Position numbers and translations under genes: made by a program
Part shown: positions 52,320-63,987 of the stretch, piece by piece
How the letters are laid out: each line of letters starts with the position of its first letter
Position numbering within the stretch: the first letter of the stretch is position 1
Notes under the pieces: generated by a model
Seen by the model: only the letters and a program-made list of their open reading frames with translations
Told to the model about the DNA's origin: nothing
Databases searched by the model: none
Origin: Longispora fulva
Lineage (GTDB): Bacteria; Actinomycetota; Actinomycetes; Mycobacteriales; Micromonosporaceae
NCBI RefSeq assembly: GCF_015751905.1
Contig: NZ_JADOUF010000001.1
Span: 5,580,001 to 5,644,000 of the forward strand
Length of the DNA: 64,000 nucleotides
Direction: 5' to 3'

Positions 52320-52392
52320 CCGTTCAGGGTGCCACGGACGGCCGGGGCCGGTCCGGCCTGTTCGCGGGAAGCGCGACAACCGTCGACGATGT

Positions 52393-52398
52393 TAGATT
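52393..52398 (+). promoter_or_regulatory. Candidate -10 of the second RVLDTR-module protein
   Basis: TAGATT in an AT-richer stretch. It would place the transcript start near 52405, ruling out the in-frame ATG at 52389 and favouring the TTG at 52440 behind GGGGG. Confidence 0.4.
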
Positions 52399-52439
52399 CC
52401 TGTGCTCGTTTCGGTAGTCAGCAACATTCGGGGGTTTCG

Positions 52440-54881
52440 TTGCGCGTTCGTCGTGGCGTCTTGATCGGCGCCGTCGCATTCCTTGTCACAGCGGTCATTC
52501 CGCCCGGAACGGCCAGCGCGGCCCCGGTGCCGACCGCTCCCTACACCGCGTTCTCCATCGACGCCGGCGACAGCAACAACGTCCACGACCTCGGCGGATC
52601 GCAGCTGTACGACAGCAACAACGGCACCTTCACCGGCAGTTACACCAGCGCGAATGATGTCGTGGAACTGCGCGCGCGCGACAACGCCGCCACCGTGGGC
52701 TACACGTGGCGGGCGGCCCTGATGCCGCCGACCGGCTCGACGTGGGTGGCCGGTACCCGGTATCCGACCCAGAACGACCCGGACGCGACGCACGCCAGCC
52801 TGCACGTCCAGCCGGGCTCCGCCGTCTGCTCCGGCCCTGGGTCCGTCCTGATCCGGGAGGTGGTCCGCGACGGCGCGCAGAAGATCACCGCGTTCGCCGC
52901 CACCTACGCCGTCGACTGCTTTGCGGAGCAACCCCAGCAGCGCGTGACCGGTGAGCTGCGGTGGAACTCCAGCGTCGGCTACACCGCCGCGACGACCGAG
53001 AAGTGGGCCAAGTACTTCGGTAAGATGTACGCCGGGATGGACGGGCCGCCGCAGGCGATCACCCTCACGGCGAAGGGCACCGAGCCGACCACGTTCGGCG
53101 CGGTGACGTTCGGGGACCCAACGCTGTTCACCGTCACCGGCAACACCTGCTCCGGTGCGACGTTGGCGTACGGGGAGACGTGCGCCGTGACCCTGACGCC
53201 GCACCCGACCCAGCGGGGGTACCAGTACACCCAACTGTTCGTCGCCGACAACACGGCCGGTGGCCGCAAGGTCGTCCAGGTGAGCCTGGTCGGCCTGGAC
53301 CCGCGCGAGGTCGCGCCGACGTACCTGGGGTCGTTCGGGCCGGTCGAGGCGGGGCATGCCGACGTCGTGCAGACCGTGACGGTGCAGTCCTACGGCATCC
53401 AGCCGACCCGGATGGGCAAGGCGTCGATCGACGGCGTGGCCCCGGGGTGGTTCACCATCACGGCCGACACCTGCTCGGGGACCACGCTCCCGGTCGGGGG
53501 CGCCTGCACGATCCAGGTGACGGCACACGGTCTCGAGGCTCCGTACCAGGATCGGACGCTGTTCATTCCGAACGACAGCCTGACCCCGCGCTACGAGGTG
53601 CGGCTGGGCGCGGACATCGGCGCCCGGGGCAGCTACTACCCGCTGACGCCCAACCGGATCCTCGACACCCGGGAGGGCAACGGCGCGCCCAGGCGGACGG
53701 TCGGCGGCGGCGAGACCGTCCATCTGCAGGTCAACGGCCGGGGCGGCGTGCCGGCCGCCGGGGTGTCGGCCGTGGTGCTCAACGTGACCGTCACCGAGCC
53801 GACCGCCGCGGGGTTCATCACGGTGTACCCCTCCGGCCTGCCGCGTCCCGTGGCGTCGTCGCTGAACCACGTGCCCGGCTGGACCGGGGCGAACTCCGTC
53901 ACGGTCGGCGTGGGCGCCAACGGCCAGGTCGACCTGTACAGCCACGCCGGATCCACCCACGTGGTCGTCGACGTGGTCGGCTACTACGCGAAGGGCTACG
54001 CGGGGCCGGACGGTGGCCCGGCCGTCGGCGCCCAGTACGAGCCGATCGTGCCGCAGCGGCTGCTGGACACCCGCAGCGCCTGGGGCGACCCGCTGCCGGC
54101 CGGCCACTACGCCAAGGTGCCGGTCGACTTCGGGGCGAACGTCAACCCGCACATCCGGGCCCTGGCGGTCAACGTCACCGCGGTCGACCCGCGCGGGTCG
54201 GGCTTCCTGACCACCTGGGACGGGCAGGGCCCGCGCCCGAACGCCTCGACGCTCAACTACACGGCCGGCCGGAACGTGCCGAACATGGCGATCGTGCCCA
54301 CCGCGAACTGCACCGACTGCGGCGTCGGGACCGGCCTGCCGTCGATCGGCGTGCACACGACGACGGACACCCACCTCGTGGTCGACGTGGTCGGGTTCTA
54401 CGTCGACAACGGCGTGACGAGCGGACTGCGCTTCCAGCCGGTCAGGCCGACCCGGATCACCGACACCCGGCCGGACTACACCGGACCAGGCCTGCACGGT
54501 TCGATCGGCCCGGACTCCTCGGTCCCGGTCGCCGCCGACGGGGCCGTGTTCCCGGGCGCGGTCGCGGTGGGGCTCAACGTCACGGCCGTGGCGCCCACCT
54601 CGAACACGTTCCTGACCGTGTGGCCGTCGACGTATCCCGAGGTGGACCGGCCGGGGGTCAGCAACCTCAACCCGACCGCCGGGCAGGTCGTGGCCAACGC
54701 CGTGGTCACCGGCGTCGGCTTCAAGATCGGCTATGGCGGCGACCTGATGTTCAACGTGTACAACCTGGCCGGCCGGACCGACCTGGTCGTCGACGCGGTC
54801 GGGGCCTACTACTCCAGCACGACCGGCTACCGGCAGACCTACCTGCTCCTCAGCTACCCGCCGTCGACCCGGCACGGCTGA
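52440..54881 (+). CDS. Large secreted protein: anchor-D-like domains and three RVLDTR-type modules
   Basis: An 813-aa exported protein. The signal peptide is about 1-27 ('VLIGAVAFLVTAVIPPGTASA'-type, cut before AP). After an N-terminal beta region come two immunoglobulin-like domains (about 205-285 and 293-390), each with 'T.DTCSG.TL..G..C.I.VT', as in choice-of-anchor-D/HYDIN-ASPM-type domains. Three modules at about 398-520, 532-655 and 664-790 begin RILDTR, RLLDTR and RITDTR and end '..VVVDVVGYY'. These are diverged versions of the modules in the protein encoded at 9.2 kb. The start is a TTG, the only one compatible with the signal peptide and promoter. Role in adhesion or glycan binding is inference. 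Confidence 0.78.
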   Translation: MRVRRGVLIGAVAFLVTAVIPPGTASAAPVPTAPYTAFSIDAGDSNNVHDLGGSQLYDSNNGTFTGSYTSANDVVELRARDNAATVGYTWRAALMPPTGSTWVAGTRYPTQNDPDATHASLHVQPGSAVCSGPGSVLIREVVRDGAQKITAFAATYAVDCFAEQPQQRVTGELRWNSSVGYTAATTEKWAKYFGKMYAGMDGPPQAITLTAKGTEPTTFGAVTFGDPTLFTVTGNTCSGATLAYGETCAVTLTPHPTQRGYQYTQLFVADNTAGGRKVVQVSLVGLDPREVAPTYLGSFGPVEAGHADVVQTVTVQSYGIQPTRMGKASIDGVAPGWFTITADTCSGTTLPVGGACTIQVTAHGLEAPYQDRTLFIPNDSLTPRYEVRLGADIGARGSYYPLTPNRILDTREGNGAPRRTVGGGETVHLQVNGRGGVPAAGVSAVVLNVTVTEPTAAGFITVYPSGLPRPVASSLNHVPGWTGANSVTVGVGANGQVDLYSHAGSTHVVVDVVGYYAKGYAGPDGGPAVGAQYEPIVPQRLLDTRSAWGDPLPAGHYAKVPVDFGANVNPHIRALAVNVTAVDPRGSGFLTTWDGQGPRPNASTLNYTAGRNVPNMAIVPTANCTDCGVGTGLPSIGVHTTTDTHLVVDVVGFYVDNGVTSGLRFQPVRPTRITDTRPDYTGPGLHGSIGPDSSVPVAADGAVFPGAVAVGLNVTAVAPTSNTFLTVWPSTYPEVDRPGVSNLNPTAGQVVANAVVTGVGFKIGYGGDLMFNVYNLAGRTDLVVDAVGAYYSSTTGYRQTYLLLSYPPSTRHG

Positions 54882-54885
54882 CGAA

Positions 54886-54919
54886 CGACGCCGCACCTCC
54901 GAGGGGAGGTGCGGCGTCG
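54886..54919. terminator. Bidirectional hairpin terminator
   Basis: Perfect 15-bp stem (54886-54900 with 54905-54919), GAGG loop, between the convergent secreted-protein and APS kinase genes. Confidence 0.75.
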
Positions 54920-54929
54920 CCGTCGTCGG

Positions 54930-56447
54930 TCAGCGATGCGTGGGCTCCAGCCAGCCCTCGGCCGTCAGATACTCCAGGACCGTCGCCACCGCCTCGTCCA
55001 CCGTGCCGGCGGTGTCCAGCGTCAACTCCGCGTCCGTGGGGATCTCGTACGGGTCGTGCACGCCCGTCATGTTGGTGATCTCGCCCGCGCGGGCCTTCGC
55101 GTACAGCCCCTTGCGGTCGCGGTGTTCGCACACCTCCAACGGGGTGGCGATGTGCACCAGGATGAAGCCGGCCCCGGCCTCGTGCGCGAGCTTGCGGGCC
55201 TCGGACCGCCCGTGCGCGTACGGCGCGATCGGGCAGCACAGCGCCAGCCCGCCGTGCCGGGCGACCTCGGCGGCCACGAACCCGATCCGGGTGATGTTCA
55301 GATCCCGGTCGGCCCGGGAGAAGCCCAGCCCGGACGACAGCAGCCGGCGGACGACGTCGCCGTCGAGCAGGCTCGCGTTGCGGTCCCCGCCCTCCAACAG
55401 CGCCTCGTGCACGCCCCGGGCGATCGTGGACTTGCCGGCCCCGGACAGCCCCGTGAACAGCACGACCAGGCCCCGCTCCCGGCGCGGCGGCCGGGACCGG
55501 CGCAGCTCGCGGGCCACTGCCGGCGGGGTGTGCCACTCGGGCAGGGTCACGCCCCGGTCCTGCAGGTCGGCGATCTCCCGGTTGGTGAGCGCGAGCCGGC
55601 GGGTGTGCGGGGGCACGTCGTCCCGGGAGCGCCACTGGCCGTCCCTGGCGTCGTAGGCCAGCTCACGGGGCAGCACCACGCGCAGCCCGCCGGCCGTGAT
55701 GGTGGCCGCACCCGACAGCAGGTGCGTCACCCCGTAGGCCGCGGCGACCCGGCTGTGCAGCAGGGCGTCACGCACGTCGTCCCCGGTCCGGCTCAGCGGC
55801 ACGGCGACGATGGTGGCCGCCGGCAGCCGGTCGCGGGCGGCGAGGACGGACCGGACCAGCGCCTCGGGCGGCAGGCCGTCCGGACCGGGGCCGCCGACCG
55901 GGACGATGATCAGCACGTGGCCGGCGATCGTACGGGCGGCGTGCGCGAGCTGGGCCAGCTGCGGCCGGTGCAGCGGCCGGTCGGCGATCACCCCGAGCAC
56001 CCGCCCCGACGGCAGCACGTCGCGGACCTCCGCCGGGCCCATCCGGAGCTTCTTGAACGCGCCGCGCGGACCCTCGCCGAGCCGGCGGAGCTGCCCGGAG
56101 ATGTACACCGAGCCGGCCCTGGCCTCCCAGGTCTCCGTGACGTCCAGGGCGGCGGCCGGCGCGGCCTCGGTGTCGGTGAGGACCAGGACCCGACGCATCG
56201 GGTTGGTCAGGTCGAGCTTCCCCGTGAGCTCGACCGGCACCTCCAGGGTGACCGGCGCCGACCAGGGGGTGCCGTCGGCGAGGCGTCCACGCCGGGTCAC
56301 CGCCACCAGGTCGGCCCGGCTCAGAAAGCCCGTCAGCGGGGCGTACGCCCCGCTGAGCAGTAGTTCCAGATCGGCGAGTTCCCGTGGTCGGGGCGTGTAC
56401 GTCGGTGCGCCCCGTAGTACTTCGTCTGGCAGAACCCAGCCGTTCAT
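54930..56447 (-). CDS. APS kinase fused to a degenerate ATP-sulfurylase-like domain
   Basis: A 505-aa protein. The C-terminal third is an intact adenylyl-sulfate kinase: P-loop 'GLSGAGKST' at 333-341, 'LLDGDVVRRLLSSGLGFS', 'DRDLNITRIGFVA' and 'CCPIAPY'. It makes PAPS from APS and ATP. Residues 1-310 look like ATP sulfurylase ('SGAYAPLTGFL' at 32-42), but the Q-x-R-N-x-x-H-x-x-H site reads 'VIADRPLHRPQL' (153-164) and the GRDHAG loop reads 'GAATIT' (near 246-251). Sulfurylase activity is therefore unlikely. ATG 56447 has GGAGGGGG five bases upstream. A sulfotransferase that would use PAPS is encoded 7 kb away. Confidence 0.85.
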   Translation of the reverse strand: MNGWVLPDEVLRGAPTYTPRPRELADLELLLSGAYAPLTGFLSRADLVAVTRRGRLADGTPWSAPVTLEVPVELTGKLDLTNPMRRVLVLTDTEAAPAAALDVTETWEARAGSVYISGQLRRLGEGPRGAFKKLRMGPAEVRDVLPSGRVLGVIADRPLHRPQLAQLAHAARTIAGHVLIIVPVGGPGPDGLPPEALVRSVLAARDRLPAATIVAVPLSRTGDDVRDALLHSRVAAAYGVTHLLSGAATITAGGLRVVLPRELAYDARDGQWRSRDDVPPHTRRLALTNREIADLQDRGVTLPEWHTPPAVARELRRSRPPRRERGLVVLFTGLSGAGKSTIARGVHEALLEGGDRNASLLDGDVVRRLLSSGLGFSRADRDLNITRIGFVAAEVARHGGLALCCPIAPYAHGRSEARKLAHEAGAGFILVHIATPLEVCEHRDRKGLYAKARAGEITNMTGVHDPYEIPTDAELTLDTAGTVDEAVATVLEYLTAEGWLEPTHR

Positions 56448-56558: not shown

Positions 56559-57029
56559 TTACGTCAGATCGGCGGCCCCGAACGAGGCACTGAACCTTTT
56601 ACACCAGATCGTCACACTCTTGTAGAGATCCAGGTCGGTGCCGGGCGGGATGTCGTACACCTGACTGCCCTTGTTGCCCTTGAGTCGGCCCAGCTCGACA
56701 TGGCGCGAGGCATCGAGGTCCGTCACCGTCGCCGCCTGGTCGGTGATCCAGACCCGCAGGTCGGGGCCGTTGCTCGTGTCCAGGTCACGCAGGGCGAGCA
56801 CGTGCCGGCCGTCGGCGAGCCGGACCAGTTCGGCGGATCCGGCCGTCGCGTGCTCGTGGCTGACGAAGCTCCCGTGGCGCACGACGGTGTCGGCGATCGT
56901 GGGCGCCGCCGCCGGCAGGGTCTCGTGCACCGTCCGGTCGACGACCAGCTTCCACGGCTGGAACCAGAACAGTCCGAAGGCGACGGCCACCGCGAGCGCG
57001 AGGCCGACGAGGACAAGTTTCTTCCGCAT
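56559..57029 (-). CDS. DM13 domain protein, membrane-anchored
   Basis: A 156-aa protein with an N-terminal signal/anchor helix (about 5-24) and a DM13 domain: 'HGSFVSHEHATAGSAELVRL', 'LRDLDTSNGPDLRVWIT', 'VELGRLKGNKGSQVYDIPPG' and 'SVTIWCKRFSASFGAADL'. The single cysteine near the end is the conserved DM13 cysteine, proposed to take part in redox. Secreted DM13 proteins are of unknown function. It lies 111 bp upstream of the APS kinase gene in the same direction. Confidence 0.88.
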   Translation of the reverse strand: MRKKLVLVGLALAVAVAFGLFWFQPWKLVVDRTVHETLPAAAPTIADTVVRHGSFVSHEHATAGSAELVRLADGRHVLALRDLDTSNGPDLRVWITDQAATVTDLDASRHVELGRLKGNKGSQVYDIPPGTDLDLYKSVTIWCKRFSASFGAADLT

Positions 57030-57096: not shown

Positions 57097-59013
57097 CTAC
57101 CTCAGTCGGACGTCGAACATCCGGTTGCTCATCAGGTCCCGGAACGCCGCCGCCGCCTGCGGGGTCGCGTCGATCCGTGAGTCGCGGCCCTCGGCGTTCG
57201 GCGAGTCGAAGTACACCAGGGCCTTGACCCGGGGGAACAGCGCCATCTGGTCGGCGGTGGTCGCGAAGAACCACGGCTTGTGGCCCGGGTTCCCGCCCGA
57301 CTGCCACACGCCCCACTCGGCGACCATCAGCGGCTTGTCCGGGAAGGTCCGCGCCGCCCACGAGTAGATGCCCGGCCAGGCCTTGCCGACCGAGGTGCGG
57401 TTGACCATCTCCACGAAGTCGCCGTAGCCGAAGCCGCCGTCGCTGTAGGCGTACACGTCCCAGCTGACCCAGTCGACCACGTCGTCGCCCGGGTAGAGCT
57501 CACCGAACCACGGCTGGACATTCCACGGCACGTAGGACATGTAGCACATCACCGTGACCGCGTTCGTCACTCCCTTGGCACGCAACCGCTCCACGACGTG
57601 CCGGTACATCGCGGCGTAGTCCCGGGCCGTCATGCCCGAGCCCGCGCCGGCGATCACGTCGTTCTCCGGCTCGTGGTGCACGGTCAGGTAGAACGGGTCG
57701 GTGTAGGTGGACGTGATGTGCGCGGCGAGCCGGTCGATCACCCGGTCGTAGTCCCCGGCGGCGACCCGGTCCCAGCGCATCAGGGGCTTCCAGTTCAGGA
57801 ACAGCAGCCGCTCGTGGCCGGGTTCGCGGGCCAGCGCCACCTCCCACGGGGTCGGGAACAGCTCCTCGCCCCGGTGGTAGTGGTGGAAGATCTGCTGCCC
57901 CCGGCCTGCGGTCGCCTCGAACTCGCGGAGCGCCTGGTCCCGGGGCTGGCTGGTGTGTGCGGCCGGGGCGACGCCGGTGAGGATGCCGCAGGTGGGGACG
58001 AGCTTCGGGCCGACGACGCAGGGCGCGGCCGGCGGCTCCTCCGGGTCCTCGGAGGGCACGGCGGTCGGGATCGGGCTGACGGCGGGCGGGCTCGGCACCG
58101 CCGGGCTGGGCACGGTCGGGCTGGGCACCGTCGGGTCCGGCGGGACGGCGGTGGGCGCCGGCGGCGTCGGGGACGGGAGCTGCTGGCCGGGCGTCGACGG
58201 CACCGGCTGGGGGGCCGGCGGGCTCGGCTGCGGCGGGACCGGGCTGGGTTCCCCGCCGGACGGCGGGGTCGGCACGGGATCGGACGGCACGGGCACCGGA
58301 TCGGCCGGGGGCAGCGGCGGCGGCACCGGGTCGGAGGCGGAGCCCGGATCGGGGCTGGGTTCGACGCTCGGCGAGGGGCTCCCAGGGGGCGGCGGCGTGG
58401 TGCCCGGGTCCTCGGCGGGCGCCGGCGACGCCGGATCCTGCCACCGGCCGGTGCGCGGGTCCTCCCGGGTCAGCCGCAGGGTCGGCGCGCCGGAGGGCGC
58501 CTCCGAGCTGCGGAACCGCTGCAACCGATCGGGGCTGGTCAGGGCGAAGGCGTACTTGCCGGTGGACTGCACCACCCGGCTCACGTCGAAGGTCAGGGTG
58601 GTGGCCGACGCGGTGACCGTGCTGGTGCCGAGCACCCGGCCGACCTGCGGCGCCCGGCTGGCCAGGGTGCGCTCGCTCCAGCCGGTGTCCGGCACCGAGA
58701 CCAGCTCGACCAGGCCCGGCTTCGCCCCGGGCAGCGGGGTCAGGGTCAGCGTGCTGCGCAGCCGGCCGGTGCCGCGGGGCACCTCGCTGACCTGGAAGCG
58801 CAGGTAGGACACCATCGCCTCGGCGCCGGACCGGCCGGCGGCCAGCTCGGGGTCACGGGCGACGGCCGGGGTGCGGCCGTTGCGCAGGTACGCGTCGGCG
58901 GCCACCCGGACCAGAACGTCGGGCGTCACGGGCGAACTCGTGCAGGCGGCCAGTCCACCGCCCAGGCAGAGCACGGTGGTGACGAGGGCGACTCGACGGT
59001 CCACGCATCTCAT
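57097..59013 (-). CDS. Lipoprotein with DNRLRE-like domain, Pro-rich linker and GH26-like glycosidase
   Basis: A 638-aa exported lipoprotein (lipobox LAAC, C24). Residues about 28-200 form a beta domain of the DNRLRE/CBM96 kind ('VAADAYLRNGR' and 'MVSYLRFQVSEVP'). A roughly 130-residue linker of Pro/Ser/Thr/Val repeats ('PSPTVPSPAVPSPP') follows. The C-terminal TIM-barrel resembles GH26 endo-mannanase-type enzymes: acid/base E448 in 'VHHEPEND' and nucleophile E566 in 'MVAEWGVW', with 'YPGDDVVDWVSWDVYAY' between. It would hydrolyse a beta-glycan outside the cell. It diverges from the polysaccharide operon, so it may trim that polymer. GH family assignment is by motif only. Confidence 0.75.
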   Translation of the reverse strand: MRCVDRRVALVTTVLCLGGGLAACTSSPVTPDVLVRVAADAYLRNGRTPAVARDPELAAGRSGAEAMVSYLRFQVSEVPRGTGRLRSTLTLTPLPGAKPGLVELVSVPDTGWSERTLASRAPQVGRVLGTSTVTASATTLTFDVSRVVQSTGKYAFALTSPDRLQRFRSSEAPSGAPTLRLTREDPRTGRWQDPASPAPAEDPGTTPPPPGSPSPSVEPSPDPGSASDPVPPPLPPADPVPVPSDPVPTPPSGGEPSPVPPQPSPPAPQPVPSTPGQQLPSPTPPAPTAVPPDPTVPSPTVPSPAVPSPPAVSPIPTAVPSEDPEEPPAAPCVVGPKLVPTCGILTGVAPAAHTSQPRDQALREFEATAGRGQQIFHHYHRGEELFPTPWEVALAREPGHERLLFLNWKPLMRWDRVAAGDYDRVIDRLAAHITSTYTDPFYLTVHHEPENDVIAGAGSGMTARDYAAMYRHVVERLRAKGVTNAVTVMCYMSYVPWNVQPWFGELYPGDDVVDWVSWDVYAYSDGGFGYGDFVEMVNRTSVGKAWPGIYSWAARTFPDKPLMVAEWGVWQSGGNPGHKPWFFATTADQMALFPRVKALVYFDSPNAEGRDSRIDATPQAAAAFRDLMSNRMFDVRLR

Positions 59014-59153
59014 ACGTGCATATTTACAGTTTTTCGCGACACGAGGGGGTGAAAAACCGCAACTCGCCGCGCACCCTCGACCCCCCGCCGGTCGTTGGCC
59101 GTTTAGTCGGCCTGTGCGCATTGCCGCACATCGGAGGGAGGCCGGATTTGTTC

Positions 59154-59214: not shown

Positions 59215-60579
59215 ATGGACGTGTCTCGGCCGGCCACGTACGACCTCTCCGACTACCTCAGCGCCCTCCGCAGGAGCTGGTGGGTGGCCGTGCTGGCCGC
59301 GGCTCTCGGGTTCGCCGGGGCCACGGCGTTCACCATGACCCAGCACAAGCTGTACGAGTCCTCGGCCTCCGTTCTCGTCCAGCCCACCGGCGTCACCGAC
59401 ACGAACGTGACCGGCGGCCGGACCAAGGGCGACATCAACCTGGACACCGAGGCCCAACTCGTGAAGTCCACGGCCGTGGCCACCGACGCCGGGAAGCTGA
59501 TGCGCAGCGCGAAGACCGCGCCGCAGCTCGCCCACCGGGTGTCGGTCGCCGTGCCGCCGAACACGTCGGTGCTGGTCATCACGTACTCCGAGCATTCGCC
59601 GCGCGCCGCGCAGGCCGGCGCGCACGCGTTCGCCGAGGCCTACCTCGCCAACCGCAACGAGAGCGCGAAGGCCGACCTGACCGGGCAGGCCGGCACGCTG
59701 GACCGCAAGATCAAGCAGGTGAACGCCGACCTGGCGAGCCTGCCGACCACCCTGGACCGGGCCCAGCCGGAGGTCGAGAGCCGGCGGTCCAACCTGTCCA
59801 ACCAGCTCAACACGCTGACCTCCCGGTTGAACCAGCTCGCCACGACCACGGTCAACGGCGGCAAGATCATCAGCGACGCCGACCTGCCACACCAGGCCAT
59901 CAAGCCCAGCGTGCCGCTCAACCTCGGCAGCGGAGCGCTCGCCGGACTCGTGATCGGGATCGGCATCGCCCTCGGCCGGGAACGCTTCGACCGCCGGGTC
60001 CGGCGCGGGATCGACCTGCCCCGGCGGGCCGGCGTGCCGCTGCTCGCCGAACTCGCCGAGATCGACGACCGGTACGACCCGGGCACGGAGAGCGGGCGCG
60101 CCTTCGCCCGGCTGCGCAACGAGATCGCGTGCGGGGAGCACCGGCTGATCGTGGTGACCGGGGCCGCCCCGGGTTCGGCGGCCACCCTGGTCGCGGCCAA
60201 CCTGGCCGGGGCGTTCGCGCACGCCGGCAACAACGTCTCCCTGCTCACCCAGCACGCGCAGGACGCGACCGGGCAGCTGCAGGTCGAGTCCGTCCGCCGG
60301 ACCCTGGACAAGCTGCGCGCCCGGGCCGACTACGTCATCATCGAGGCCCCGTCCACGGCCGCCAGCGCCGACGCCCAGAGCCTCGCCAGCCTGTGCGACG
60401 CGGCGATCATGGCCGTCGAGGCCCGCCGATGTACCCACGCCCAGGTCCTCGACGCCGCCGACCAGCTGCGCCGGGTGGACACCGCCCTGCTCGGCGGGGT
60501 GCTGACCCCGCGCCTGCGGGCCCAGGCCACCCGGCCAGCGCAGCCGGAACCGGTCGAGCCGCAGCCGCAGTTGACATGA
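59215..60579 (+). CDS. Wzz/chain-length-determinant-like protein with degenerate BY-kinase domain
   Basis: A 454-aa polysaccharide co-polymerase. TM1 at about 22-40 and TM2 at about 238-255 flank an extracytoplasmic, coiled-coil-rich domain ('QAGTLDRKIKQVNADLASL'). The cytosolic part resembles the CpsD/BY-kinase ATPase ('VIIEAPSTAASADAQSLA', then 'LCDAAIMAVEARRCTHAQV'). Its P-loop reads G316-AAPGSAAT without the essential Lys, and there is no Tyr-rich tail. It should not bind ATP normally, so it probably acts structurally in chain-length control. First gene of a 4-gene operon; the next overlaps by ATGA. Confidence 0.82.
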   Translation: MDVSRPATYDLSDYLSALRRSWWVAVLAAALGFAGATAFTMTQHKLYESSASVLVQPTGVTDTNVTGGRTKGDINLDTEAQLVKSTAVATDAGKLMRSAKTAPQLAHRVSVAVPPNTSVLVITYSEHSPRAAQAGAHAFAEAYLANRNESAKADLTGQAGTLDRKIKQVNADLASLPTTLDRAQPEVESRRSNLSNQLNTLTSRLNQLATTTVNGGKIISDADLPHQAIKPSVPLNLGSGALAGLVIGIGIALGRERFDRRVRRGIDLPRRAGVPLLAELAEIDDRYDPGTESGRAFARLRNEIACGEHRLIVVTGAAPGSAATLVAANLAGAFAHAGNNVSLLTQHAQDATGQLQVESVRRTLDKLRARADYVIIEAPSTAASADAQSLASLCDAAIMAVEARRCTHAQVLDAADQLRRVDTALLGGVLTPRLRAQATRPAQPEPVEPQPQLT

Positions 60580-61922
60580 CGCTCACGACCGCCCCACCCT
60601 CCCCGCCGCTGGTGCGCCCCAGGGCGCCCCGCTGGCTCCCCCTGCCCCCGGCCTGGCCCCTGGTCGGGATCCTCGCCCTCTACCCGCTGTGGTGGGCGCT
60701 CGGCCTCGGCGTCCTGATCTTCCCGATGATGGCGCTGCCGATGGGCTGGTGGCTGCTGCGGAACCGGCCCATCCAGGTACCCCCCGGATTCGGTCTGTGG
60801 TTGCTCTTCCTGCTCGCGGTCCTGGGCAGCGTCATCGCGCTCGGCTACCAGCCGGCCGGCACCCTGCCGGGCGGCTTCGTCGGCCGGCTGCCCGGGGTGG
60901 GCTTCCGGGTGATCGAGTACGCGTCGCTGACCGTGCTGATGCTCTACGTCGGCAACCTGCCCCGGGCCGTGCTGCCGCAGCGGCGGATCGTGGCGCTGCT
61001 CGGCTGGCTGTTCGTCGTCACCGTCGGCGGCGGACTGCTCGGCGTGTTCGCCGGGCACTGGGAGTTCAACTCCCCGGTGGAGATGCTGCTCCCGCACAAG
61101 CTGCGCAGCATGGGCTTCATCAAGTCCCTGGTGCACCCGGCGGCCGCGCAGGTGATGGACGTGTTCGGCGGGATGGACATCCCCCGGCCGGCCGCCCCGT
61201 GGGGCTACACGAACACCTGGGGCAACAACTACTGCCTGCTGGTCGGCTTCTTCGTGATCTGGGCCTTCGCCACGAGACGCCGCTGGCTGGCCGCCGTGCT
61301 GCTGGTCGTGTCGGTGCTGCCGGTCGTCTACTCGCTCAACCGGGGCCTGTGGATCGGCCTCGGCATGCTGGCCCTCTACCTGGCCGCCCGGCTCGCCGCC
61401 CAGGGCCGGATGTGGCCGCTGTTCGGGCTCGCCGCCACCACGGCCGTCGTCGCGGTGCTGCTCGCCGCCAGCCCGCTCGGCACCCTGGTCAACGCCCGGG
61501 TCGAGCACGGCAAGTCCAACGACGTCCGGATGTACGTCACCGTCGAAGCGCTCCGAGGACTGCCCGAGTCCCCGCTGATCGGCTTCGGCTCGACCCGCAA
61601 CACCTCGGGCGGGCGCAACTCGATCGCGGTCGGCAGCACCTCGGACTGCGAGCGGTGCGGCAACTTCACCCTGGGCGGCAACGGTCAGCTCTGGCAGACC
61701 CTGTACGCGCACGGGATCATCGGCACCCTCGCCTACTTCGGCTTCTTCGGCTACGGCATCTGGCGGTTCCGCCGGGACCGTACCGCGATCGGGCTCGTCT
61801 GCTCGGCCTGTCACGTCGTCAGCTTCTCGGCGATGTTCTGGTACAACGCGCTGGTCACACCACTGGCGTTCCAGCTGCTGGCCTACGCGCTGCTGTGGAG
61901 GAACACCCATGCCCACGAATAA
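60576..61922 (+). CDS. O-antigen-ligase/polymerase-like membrane protein (Wzy/WaaL type)
   Basis: A 448-aa polytopic protein with about ten to eleven hydrophobic segments. The large outside loop carries 'YTNTWGNNYCLLVGF' before it and 'SLNRGLWIGLGMLALYL', then 'ESPLIGFGSTRNTSGG' after it, matching the Wzy_C (O-antigen ligase) pattern with its Arg residues. Such enzymes polymerise or ligate undecaprenyl-linked glycan repeat units on the outer face of the membrane. It overlaps the Wzz-like gene by 4 bp and the next gene by 14 bp, so the three proteins should be made together. Confidence 0.82.
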   Translation: MTLTTAPPSPPLVRPRAPRWLPLPPAWPLVGILALYPLWWALGLGVLIFPMMALPMGWWLLRNRPIQVPPGFGLWLLFLLAVLGSVIALGYQPAGTLPGGFVGRLPGVGFRVIEYASLTVLMLYVGNLPRAVLPQRRIVALLGWLFVVTVGGGLLGVFAGHWEFNSPVEMLLPHKLRSMGFIKSLVHPAAAQVMDVFGGMDIPRPAAPWGYTNTWGNNYCLLVGFFVIWAFATRRRWLAAVLLVVSVLPVVYSLNRGLWIGLGMLALYLAARLAAQGRMWPLFGLAATTAVVAVLLAASPLGTLVNARVEHGKSNDVRMYVTVEALRGLPESPLIGFGSTRNTSGGRNSIAVGSTSDCERCGNFTLGGNGQLWQTLYAHGIIGTLAYFGFFGYGIWRFRRDRTAIGLVCSACHVVSFSAMFWYNALVTPLAFQLLAYALLWRNTHAHE

Positions 61923-63108
61923 CGCGCCGGCGGCACTGACCGCCTCGGACTCCTCGCTGCGGGCCGCGTACCTCACCGAGGTGCTCGGGCTGCTGTACCC
62001 GACGGGTGAGGGGGCCGGGATCGAGTACCTCGTGGTGCCCGACGCGCGCCGGCCACGGCTCCTGGTACCCGCCAACGACCGCAGGCTCGCCGCGGCCGCC
62101 GTGCGCAGGTACGCCGAACCCACCTCCCGGCTCGCCCGGTTCAAGCGGGACGCCGTCGTCGCCGCGCTGCGCACCGGGGCCTCCGGACTGCTGCTCCGCG
62201 ACCGGGTCACGGTGCGCGAGTCCGGCGGCATCGACGCGCACCTGTGCGAGGCGCTCGGCCAGCAGGTCCGGATCAGCGTGCACATCGGACCGGCCAGGGC
62301 CAACCGCAAGCCGGTCCTGCAACTGCTCGCCCCCGGCGGCACCACGGTCGGATTCGTCAAGCTCGGCGTCAACGAGCTGACCCGCCGGCTGGTCCGCGCC
62401 GAAACCAACGCGCTGGAGTCCCTGTCCTGCGCCGGGCTGCAACTGATCACCACGCCGTCCGTGCTGCACGCCGGCGGCTGGCGCGGCCACGAGGTGCTCG
62501 TCCAGTCCGCCCTGCCGATCTGGCGGCCCCGGGCCGCGGTCCGCGCCCGGCTGAACCCCGCGATGCGGGAGCTGGCCGAGGCGTTCGGGGTGACCCGGTG
62601 CCGGCTGTCGCAGAGCGAGTACCGGGGCCGGCTCACCACCCGGCTCGCCACGGTCAAGGTCTCCGACGACGGCCGGGTCCTCGAACGCGCCGCCGCCGAA
62701 CTCCTCAAACGCGCCGGCAGCGCCCAGCTGTCCTTCGGCGCGTGGCACGGCGACTGGACCCCGTGGAACATGGCCGCCGTGCACGACACGCTGCTGGTCT
62801 GGGACTGGGAACGGTTCTGCACCGGGGTGCCCGTCGGCTTCGACGGCGCGCACTACGCCCTGCAGGCCGCCATCGTCACCGCCGGCCGGGAACCCGCCAC
62901 GGCCGTCGACCAGGTGATCGACAACGCGCCGGCGCTGCTCGCCCCGTTCGGGGTCGGGGCCGCCGCCGCCCGGATCACCGTGCTGCTCTACCTCGTGGAC
63001 CTCGCCACCCGGTACCTGACCGATCGCCAGGCGGAGGCCGGTGCCCGACTCGGGGTGCTGGGCACCTGGCTACTGCCGGCGTTGGTCCGCCGGGTTTCTC
63101 ACCTATAG
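61909..63108 (+). CDS. Phosphotransferase-fold (APH-like) kinase
   Basis: A 399-aa cytosolic protein. The C-terminal half has the aminoglycoside-phosphotransferase/choline-kinase plan: Lys151 in 'TVGFVKLGVNEL', Glu165 in 'RAETNALE', the catalytic 'WHGDWTPWNMA' at 279-289 and the metal Asp299 in 'VWDWERF'. All key residues are present. Residues 1-110 are not assigned. It could phosphorylate a sugar, polyol or lipid intermediate of the polymer; antibiotic resistance is a poor fit given its place inside the operon. It overlaps the ligase gene by 14 bp and ends 9 bp before the sulfotransferase gene. Confidence 0.75.
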   Translation: MPTNNAPAALTASDSSLRAAYLTEVLGLLYPTGEGAGIEYLVVPDARRPRLLVPANDRRLAAAAVRRYAEPTSRLARFKRDAVVAALRTGASGLLLRDRVTVRESGGIDAHLCEALGQQVRISVHIGPARANRKPVLQLLAPGGTTVGFVKLGVNELTRRLVRAETNALESLSCAGLQLITTPSVLHAGGWRGHEVLVQSALPIWRPRAAVRARLNPAMRELAEAFGVTRCRLSQSEYRGRLTTRLATVKVSDDGRVLERAAAELLKRAGSAQLSFGAWHGDWTPWNMAAVHDTLLVWDWERFCTGVPVGFDGAHYALQAAIVTAGREPATAVDQVIDNAPALLAPFGVGAAAARITVLLYLVDLATRYLTDRQAEAGARLGVLGTWLLPALVRRVSHL

Positions 63109-63117
63109 GAGAGGGTC

Positions 63118-63987
63118 GTGGACTCACACAAGGTCCCAGAGAAAGTCAAACAGTTGGTGCACTTCGGCTCCCGGTCACTCGGCCGGGCCACCGCGAACGC
63201 CCGACTGCTGCCGTCGTTCCTGCTGTGCGGGGGGCAGCGGTGCGGCACGACGTCGCTGTACCGGGCGCTCGCCGGGCACCCGGCCATCCTCAAGGCGGTG
63301 CTGCACAAGGGCGTGCACTACTTCGACACGTCCTACCACCAGGGATTCTCCTGGTACCGGGGCCACTTCCCGCTCCGGGTCAGCGCCCGACGCGTCGAGT
63401 CCCGGGTCCAGGTGCCGGTCCAGACGTTCGAGTCCAGCCCGTACTACATGTACCACCCGCACGCCGCCGAACGGATCGCCCGCGACCTGCCCGACGTGAA
63501 GCTCGTCGTCCTGGTCCGCGACCCGGTCGAGCGCGCCTACTCCCAGCACGCGCACGAGCTGGCCCGCGGCTTCGAACACATCGAGGAGTTCACCGAGGCC
63601 GTGGACCTCGAGCCGTCCCGGCTGTCCGGCGAGGCGGAGCGGCTGCGCACCGACCCGACGTACTACTCCTTCTCCCACCAGCACCACGGCTACCTGGCCC
63701 GCGGCCGGTACGTCGAATACCTCGAACGGCTCGCCGACATCTTCGGCCGGGACCGCATCCACGTCGTCGACAGCCACGACTTCTTCACCACCCCGCAGCC
63801 GGTGTTCGCCGACCTGCTGGGCTTCCTCGGCCTGCCGTGGCTCGGCGACCCGCCGTTCGAGCAGCACAACGCGCGGCCCAGGTCCACGATGCCGGAGTCG
63901 GTGCGCGAGGCGCTCGACGCGTACTTCGCGCCCCACGACGAACGCCTCGCCCGGTGGCTCGGCTGGACGCCCTCCTGGCGACGATGA
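63118..63987 (+). CDS. PAPS-dependent sulfotransferase
   Basis: A 289-aa sulfotransferase. The 5'-phosphosulfate loop is 'CGGQRCGTTSLYRAL' at 37-51 and the 3'-phosphate site is 'VLVRDPVERAYSQHAHE' with R134 and S142. 'ESSPYYMYHP' is the family segment after strand 3, and the sequence matches the heparan-sulfate/NodH-like carbohydrate group more than small-molecule sulfotransferases. It would move sulfate from PAPS to a hydroxyl or amine of a glycan. GTG start with GGAGAGGG upstream. Last complete gene in the window; the operon probably continues. Confidence 0.92.
   Translation: MDSHKVPEKVKQLVHFGSRSLGRATANARLLPSFLLCGGQRCGTTSLYRALAGHPAILKAVLHKGVHYFDTSYHQGFSWYRGHFPLRVSARRVESRVQVPVQTFESSPYYMYHPHAAERIARDLPDVKLVVLVRDPVERAYSQHAHELARGFEHIEEFTEAVDLEPSRLSGEAERLRTDPTYYSFSHQHHGYLARGRYVEYLERLADIFGRDRIHVVDSHDFFTTPQPVFADLLGFLGLPWLGDPPFEQHNARPRSTMPESVREALDAYFAPHDERLARWLGWTPSWRR

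Follow-up and report, generated by a model that had tools for sequence, protein, structure and literature searches.

An APS kinase with a motif-less sulfurylase-like domain beside a wps-1-type polysaccharide locus in Longispora fulva

Introduction

Why would a predicted adenosine 5'-phosphosulfate (APS) kinase retain an ATP-sulfurylase domain that has lost its active-site motifs, and where would its product, 3'-phosphoadenosine 5'-phosphosulfate (PAPS), be spent? These questions are raised by a gene in a 64,000-nucleotide stretch of the Longispora fulva genome (hereafter, the window), the product of which we term SLD-APSK for its N-terminal sulfurylase-like domain (SLD) and C-terminal APS kinase domain. 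We consider it probable that SLD-APSK is the only APS kinase of its genome, provides PAPS for the adjoining polysaccharide cluster, and keeps the dead SLD as a kinase-activating module. An earlier note on the window had described the protein as an APS kinase carrying a dead sulfurylase domain; the polysaccharide and sulfotransferase context, which says most about the purpose of the protein, had been overlooked there.

Domain structure and loss of the sulfurylase motifs

The gene and its parts are located in the window as follows.

54930..56447, minus strand: SLD-APSK gene, stop codon included; 505 aa; ATG start
55494..56447, minus strand: SLD (residues 1-318), with the fold of an ATP sulfurylase but no catalytic motifs
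55959..55988, minus strand: former QxRNxxHxxH ATP loop (residues 154-163), now IADRPLHRPQ
55695..55712, minus strand: former GRDHAG loop (residues 246-251), now GAATIT; variable within the family
55014..55475, minus strand: APS kinase domain (residues 325-478); PF01583, E 7e-54
55425..55454, minus strand: kinase P-loop TGLSGAGKST (residues 332-341)

The matches to Pfam comprised PUA_2 (residues 18-110, E 2e-16), ATP-sulfurylase (residues 133-247, E 3e-13), and APS_kinase (residues 325-478, E 7e-54). In the alignment, the QxRNxxHxxH motif was replaced by I154-A-D-R-P-L-H160-R-P-Q163, leaving H160 as the sole named position, and GRDHAG was replaced by G246-A-A-T-I-T with retention of the first Gly. 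The segment following GRDHAG in live fused proteins (PGxxSxGxxFYGPYDAQEL onward) was deleted, and the kinase P-loop and DGD motif (residues 362-364) were intact. The earlier note had read both the lost and the intact motifs exactly, and its open reading frame was right, although the strand, which is minus, was left unstated.

SLD-APSK passed the APS kinase model TIGR00455 (171.2 bits; cut-off 138.7), failed the ATP sulfurylase model TIGR00339 (72.4 bits; cut-off 322.95), and matched the model of bifunctional sulfurylase/APS kinases (NF004040/PRK05537) below its cut-off (399 versus 669 bits). In the AlphaFold model (AF2; mean pLDDT 89.8), residues 1-318 matched truncated yeast sulfurylase (1r6x) over 312 residues (Z 32.0; 2.7 Å), demonstrating that the fold proposed in the earlier note, which had called for such a structure prediction, is kept in the absence of its motifs. 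Structural matches of the whole chain included 3CR8 and 2GKS. The protein therefore has the score and motifs of an APS kinase and the fold, but neither the motifs nor the score, of an ATP sulfurylase; it falls outside the bifunctional type by the cut-off and the absence of the sulfurylase motifs, and its architecture is that of the APS kinases represented by 3CR8 and Entamoeba histolytica EhAPSK. Judged from its residues, the sulfurylase half is dead and the kinase half looks live.

Distribution and motif loss among relatives

The distribution was surveyed using the SLD alone as the query. Among 250 sampled genomes of the family of L. fulva (its own included), which we infer to be Micromonosporaceae, a match was found in 249 genomes covering 44 of 44 genera, and the sole genome without a match (G073) was 94% complete. 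The family was named from the gene order of genome G142 (see below) and from Actinoplanes, which is a member of Micromonosporaceae. A class-wide sample gave matches, some of them weak, in 56 of 296 genomes. Of these matching genomes, 27 came from one further family (a share of the matches, not of the genomes of that family), which we take as Streptosporangiaceae because the named Streptosporangium and Acrocarpospora loci fall among its members in the trees.

The earlier note had held that active-site residues present in shifted positions would speak against a dead sulfurylase. We examined 79 full-length related proteins (52 from Micromonosporaceae and 27 from other families, excluding fragments and duplicates), and neither QxRNxxHxxH nor a GRDH-like motif was present in the SLD of any of them; the kinase P-loop was kept in all 79 and DGD in 78. 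A scan of named genomes, based on the best 80 of 229 matches, gave 36 proteins spanning the query (L145 being without a kinase in frame). Among these, QxRNxxHxxH was present in 26 and lacking in 10, the latter from Thiobacillus/Hydrogenophilales, another betaproteobacterium, five Desulfobacterota, Streptosporangium, and Acrocarpospora.

Several relatives deviated in other ways. L063 (genome G038, genus g39) carries DSG in place of DGD and the P-loop GLRGSGKST, and either its kinase is perhaps failing or its assembly (~780 contigs) is poor. The fused sulfurylase-kinases of Electrothrix (L118), Desulforhopalus (L119), and Solidesulfovibrio (L120) have the odd sulfurylase sites HTGEYLHCAH/ATDH, HTEDYLHCAH/APDH, and QTDTLLHNREH/GLNH, respectively, and represent another altered group, possibly with changed activity. 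In three genomes of genus g32 (G031, G057, and G090; loci L199, L200, and L201), the reading frame of SLD-APSK is interrupted at residue 210, and the parts on either side are well conserved. We rejected a split gene, since a run of C was one base shorter than in the intact relative L015 in all three, no start codon was located near the break in the second frame, and G057 contained a second shift in a C-run. These assemblies have 1-3 contigs and 89-96% completeness, and the broken genes are probable sequencing errors rather than split proteins.

Sulfate activation in the genome

In the L. fulva genome (8.68 Mb, one contig), PF01747 and PF01583 each gave one match, both of them SLD-APSK, and PF01507 gave two. 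One PF01507 match is CysD, adjoining CysN approximately 17 kb from SLD-APSK, and a separate sulfurylase of this kind had been suggested as a target of search in the earlier note. CysD (TIGR02039, 447.2 versus 396.6 bits) and CysN (TIGR02034, 578.0 versus 336.1 bits) both passed their cut-offs, and the inositol-phosphatase-family gene beside them scored below that of the CysQ model (90.2 versus 228.8 bits). CysD was found in all 40 Micromonosporaceae genomes checked, L. fulva included; the check for CysN covered the L. fulva genome. SLD-APSK was the sole strong APS-kinase match (at least 184.8 bits) in each of 30 other Micromonosporaceae genomes. CysD lies near SLD-APSK in the genus of the window only (~17 kb in L. 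fulva and ~22 kb in G040) and far away in most other genomes listed, and this linkage was dropped as general evidence.

The second PF01507 match was assigned as follows.

L007:8365-9063: CysH, beside a nitrite/sulfite-reductase-like gene passing no cut-off

CysH carries ECCKLR…GCWPCT…ECGIH, a CC...CxxC pattern that is the cysteine pattern of APS reductases. Because of this pattern, cysteine synthesis probably, although not certainly, bypasses PAPS and is independent of SLD-APSK.

Polysaccharide neighbourhood and the wps-1 locus

The genes upstream of SLD-APSK were compared with those of genome G142, which we take, partly on the strength of gene order, to be Actinoplanes missouriensis. The following genes are located in the window.

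56559..57029, minus strand: DM13 protein, upstream of SLD-APSK on the same strand; PF10517, E 1e-25
57097..59121, minus strand: CBM96 protein distantly similar to GH26, likewise upstream of SLD-APSK and on its strand; PF24517, E 3e-8
59215..60579, plus strand: Wzz-type chain-length protein (WpsK-like); PF02706, E 1e-7, and synteny
60576..61922, plus strand, start inferred: Wzy-like membrane protein (WpsJ-like); 58% identical to its counterpart at the WpsJ position of G142
61909..63108, plus strand: kinase-like (APH) protein (WpsI-like); PF01636, E 8e-4, below the curated cut-off; 56% to G142
63118..63987, plus strand: sulfotransferase (WpsH-like); PF00685, E 1e-11, and PF13469, E 2.5e-11; 64% to G142

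The last four genes run divergently from the DM13 and CBM96 genes. The Wzy-like protein had no Pfam or NCBIfam match and is named by position and similarity alone, and the WpsH-like sulfotransferase had no NCBIfam match. The CBM96 protein shows 51% identity over 310 residues to a G142 neighbour, which also matches the GH26 protein of L. fulva at 23%. Beyond the window, the cluster continues with genes for a Wzx-like protein (weak Pfam matches), GH26, DUF6183, a methyltransferase, a WecG-type transferase, a second sulfotransferase, and GT2, followed by one more gene and then CysN, CysD, the CysQ-like gene, and a sugar transferase. The SLD-APSK of G142 (C1:790689-792209) is 67% identical to that of the window, carries the same dead loop, and lies in a wps-1-like arrangement, in which a methyltransferase match was not found.

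As described (PMC13390465), wps-1 of A. missouriensis encodes WpsA (GT2), WpsB (sulfotransferase), WpsC (WecG), WpsD (DUF4262), WpsE (GH26), WpsF (methyltransferase), WpsG (Wzx), WpsH (heparan-sulfate-type sulfotransferase), WpsI (kinase-like), WpsJ (Wzy), and WpsK (Wzz), followed by AMIS_7390. The window locus has this make-up with differences: the methyltransferase gene lies on the other side of that for GH26, DUF6183 replaces DUF4262, two genes separate Wzz from SLD-APSK, Wzy is without a family match, and Wzx has weak matches. In that study (PMC13390465), deletion of AMIS_7390 led to severe sporangium defects and reduced spore release, an outcome introduced with the word "unexpectedly", wpsH deletion led to squashed sporangia, and no macroscopic growth differences were seen among the deletions; the AMIS_7390 family is described there as catalysing APS formation, a key step toward sulfur amino acids. 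AMIS_7390 resembles the window gene in belonging to the sulfurylase/APS kinase family and adjoining a cluster of nearly the same make-up, but it was published as a member of an APS-forming family, whereas we read SLD-APSK as an APS kinase. AMIS_7390 would then be the PAPS source for the wps-1 sulfotransferases, and its deletion phenotype would be accounted for because the kinase fused to the dead sulfurylase would supply PAPS to WpsB and WpsH.

We surveyed synteny at 34 other loci of our own choosing, mostly from good assemblies, over approximately 10 kb per side (more for G142). Wzz, Wzy-like, kinase-like, and sulfotransferase genes flanked SLD-APSK in 14 of 14 loci of genus g30, 5 of 16 in other Micromonosporaceae genera, and 2 of 4 in Streptosporangiaceae. 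A homologue of the window sulfotransferase was present in 26 of 30 Micromonosporaceae genomes (L. fulva included): 13 genomes (10 genera) have it within 10 kb of SLD-APSK, 6 have a strong match at another position, and 7 have a weaker one. One of the four genomes with none is G073, which is also without SLD-APSK. In genus g35 (G034:C1:3712955 and G060:C1:1840181), the kinase match of SLD-APSK ends approximately 0.3 kb from a sulfotransferase gene of the same orientation, a pairing tighter still than in the window locus.

On the other side, SLD-APSK converges with a gene at 52329-54881, and a perfect 11-base inverted repeat (gccgcacctcc/ggaggtgcggc) at 54890-54915 between the two ends is likely a shared terminator. 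The product of that gene (850 aa) shows, by eye, a secretion-signal-like stretch near its start and had no Pfam match at E 0.001.

Selection on the dead domain, erosion, and ancestry

The ratio of nonsynonymous to synonymous substitution rates (dN/dS), estimated with a simple counting method for nine pairs chosen by us, ranged from approximately 0.07 to 0.32 in the SLD and from 0.04 to 0.35 in the kinase domain. Over 53 Micromonosporaceae sequences, the majority fraction averaged 0.77 across the SLD and 0.81 across the kinase domain. The former ATP loop (residues 154-166; majority fraction 0.94), now ADRPLHRPQLAQ, was as invariant as the kinase P-loop, whereas the former GRDHAG loop (0.66) was the most variable SLD region among those tested. 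The best 13-residue stretches of the SLD were ADRPLHRPQLAQL (0.949) and LPEWHTPPAVARE (0.948), as compared with 0.955 for the best stretch of the kinase domain, and the IADRPLHRPQ loop and LPEW stretch were the most invariant parts of the SLD in the family. The pattern held after thinning to 27 sequences of less than 80% identity (loop, 0.91; SLD, 0.73; kinase, 0.79). These alignments indicate that the dead site did not simply drift: a new sequence became fixed in place of the ATP loop, and the GRDHAG loop was released from constraint. The Streptosporangiaceae counterpart of the former ATP loop differs (PLHHRALHQ or RGPLD), and the new loop motif is therefore specific to Micromonosporaceae among the families seen. 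The computed rates and fractions show that the SLD is maintained by purifying selection in Micromonosporaceae and is not a dying pseudo-domain.

Outside this family, the SLD is eroded. In ten Streptosporangiaceae loci, the part corresponding to residues 18-318 of the window protein measured 216-239 aa as opposed to ~300, and in six shrunken members checked (including Streptosporangium and Acrocarpospora) 6 of 69 domain III residues remained. Phytoactinopolyspora (L136), Demequina (L138), and Aeromicrobium (L143) have kinases of the same lineage with short, barely recognisable sulfurylase relics. In the kinase-domain tree, the shrunken and relic members grouped with the fusion-type kinases, which were split from 37 of the 41 kinases in which no sulfurylase part could be recognised (support 100/96); the remaining four were those of Phytoactinopolyspora, Demequina, and Aeromicrobium together with L137, which has a very long branch. 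Since the eroded forms group with fusion-type kinases on the kinase domain alone, the ancestor of SLD-APSK was most likely a fused sulfurylase-kinase. The full-length tree (64 rows) placed all dead rows together with one change, albeit with weak support (74/67), and the kinase-domain tree (63 fused rows) required four changes without rejecting a single dead clade (approximately unbiased test, p 0.158). Both trees were built without L107 and L145, and the kinase trees also without the long-branched L076; L102 (GRNH) and L111 (GRDP) were scored as live on the first motif. Thiobacillus and Actinobacteria may thus have lost the site either once or separately.

Proposed role of SLD-APSK and alternative explanations

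SLD-APSK would be a monofunctional APS kinase, descended from a sulfurylase-kinase fusion in which the sulfurylase lost its function. APS would be made by the separately encoded CysD/CysN, and SLD-APSK, as the only APS kinase of the genome, would phosphorylate APS to PAPS, an activity predicted from the kinase motifs. PAPS would serve sulfation, with the sulfotransferases of the neighbouring Wzx/Wzy-type (wps-1 type) cluster as its main consumers, and cysteine synthesis would probably not need the protein. Selection would retain the dead SLD for a non-catalytic task, namely to hold the kinase domain and activate it. Such support is most likely by analogy with EhAPSK, in which, as reported (PMC13213808), the SLD is used for contacts between protomers, and its removal or mutation of contact residues cuts kcat approximately 20- to 130-fold. 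The acidic stretch of the SLD contacts is conserved in SLD-APSK (D92 and E94).

A number of observations weigh against this scheme. Regarding the kinase, the activity of actinobacterial members is predicted throughout, and nine weak extra PF01583 matches (20.6-36.8 bits, over the Pfam cut-off), which we assume to be other P-loop kinases, occurred in 7 of the 30 other genomes. CysH passed general models named phosphoadenylyl-sulfate reductase and missed the cut-offs of both the APS-reductase model (narrowly, 212.5 versus 235.3 bits) and the PAPS-reductase model (170.0 versus 254.2 bits), and either APS or PAPS may therefore be its substrate. Regarding the cluster, it was not within the stretch read at 13 of the 34 other loci, and G032, G036, and G058 carry SLD-APSK without a match to the window sulfotransferase; PAPS there must therefore go to other sulfotransferases. 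In the wps-1 report (PMC13390465), wpsB deletion gave normal-looking sporangia, albeit with fewer spores released, AMIS_7390 was not activated with wps-1 at day 3, and sulfation of the wps-1 product in A. missouriensis is putative. Regarding the SLD, the Entamoeba report (PMC13213808) states that kcat/KM of the EhAPSK mutants was largely unchanged, as KM fell too, and that the SLD-deletion protein aggregates. The EhAPSK contact residue Y133 is not conserved, its counterpart in SLD-APSK being G129 (via alignment with the T. denitrificans protein and the equivalence given in that report). The shrunken SLD of Streptosporangiaceae shows that members of this family can do without most of domain III. 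The invariance of the former ATP loop is what activation explains least well, and a site for a ligand or partner is possible.

This loop is the starting point of a less likely alternative, in which the SLD is a ligand sensor: APS, PAPS, or ATP would bind in its former nucleotide pocket and thereby modulate the kinase, as a mirror of the fungal enzyme. The regulatory or APS-binding function put forward in the earlier note is a possibility of this kind. ADRPLHRPQLAQ and LPEWHTPPAVARE being the most conserved SLD stretches, with the former equal to the kinase P-loop in conservation, would suit a sensor; the GRDHAG half of the pocket is nevertheless the most variable, the substrate segment is deleted, and the loop is changed or lost in Streptosporangiaceae. 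The SLD of Entamoeba is, moreover, described as having lost substrate binding (PMC13213808). More specifically, the only PAPS source of the family could be gated by a dead sulfurylase, with the rebuilt loop ADRPLHRPQLAQ binding a ligand or partner and switching the kinase; we regard this as doubtful, but if true, a pseudo-active-site switch would couple the supply of sulfate to the sulfation of polysaccharide and to spore development.

It is unlikely that the SLD is a docking surface, either for hand-over of APS from CysD/CysN or for placing the kinase beside the sulfotransferases. The conserved loops without a catalytic role, the CysD present in every genome checked, and its closeness to SLD-APSK in L. 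fulva and G040, of the same genus, are consistent with such a putative interaction, but CysD is distant in most other genomes listed, and the Entamoeba SLD serves contacts between protomers (PMC13213808). Far less probable still, the SLD would be a neutrally evolving relic that is being lost. The graded erosion in Streptosporangiaceae and the shorter relics of Phytoactinopolyspora, Demequina, and Aeromicrobium would fit this reading, which for Micromonosporaceae is already unlikely given the near-universal SLD and its kinase-like dN/dS. That the SLD still acts as a sulfurylase, using active-site residues that have moved or been substituted, is scarcely credible, since, despite the intact fold and the sub-threshold match to the bifunctional model, none of the 79 relatives keeps either motif, the substrate segment is gone, and the sulfurylase cut-off is missed by far.

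If SLD-APSK does supply PAPS as we propose, the AMIS_7390 phenotype gains a direct and testable reason, namely that no PAPS means no sulfation, and the reading of AMIS_7390-type genes as APS-forming would be corrected. The protein is a near-universal family trait and the sole strong APS-kinase match in each of 31 genomes checked, and it adjoins a type of polysaccharide locus with published knockouts. Its many natural variants, shrunken ones included, could also be used to study how an inactive enzyme domain serves an active partner.

Comparison with known systems

To our knowledge, this kind of protein is represented by two described cases, 3CR8 of Thiobacillus denitrificans and EhAPSK. Both share the architecture, and the combination of an APS kinase with a dead sulfurylase therefore has precedents; it is less unusual than implied in the earlier note, being near-universal in its own family and matched in these two proteins. 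What is new is the actinobacterial variant with its rebuilt loop and its shrunken forms, together with its proposed connection to a published phenotype; in the literature searched, which covered few subscription papers, we found no account of the actinobacterial protein as sulfurylase-dead or of its family-wide presence.

The best sequence match of SLD-APSK in the PDB was 3CR8, a two-domain hexameric APS kinase. The two proteins are 41% identical and share the domain order, the dead sulfurylase-like domain, and the kinase, and in both the second motif His is replaced by Gln (HRAQ in 3CR8 and HRPQ in SLD-APSK). In contrast to SLD-APSK, 3CR8 keeps the Gln and Arg of QxRN (QARQPMHRAQ) and is placed among proteobacterial fusions, apart from Actinobacteria, in the kinase-domain tree. 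EhAPSK (23VK/23VL; PMC13213808) likewise combines a dead SLD with a live kinase and is without the substrate-binding loop, but it is a eukaryotic protein of the mitosome with a very divergent SLD (E 0.017 and 0.008). Bifunctional Aquifex aeolicus 2GKS (PRK05537) shares the architecture and kinase lineage, whereas SLD-APSK is without the sulfurylase motifs and substrate segment of that type. Finally, the Penicillium chrysogenum ATP sulfurylase is described in the Entamoeba report (PMC13213808) as carrying a fused dead kinase-like domain that serves as an allosteric regulator. Each of these two enzymes thus has one dead partner, the kinase half in Penicillium and the sulfurylase half in SLD-APSK, which bears out the suggestion in the earlier note of a fungal arrangement with its roles reversed.

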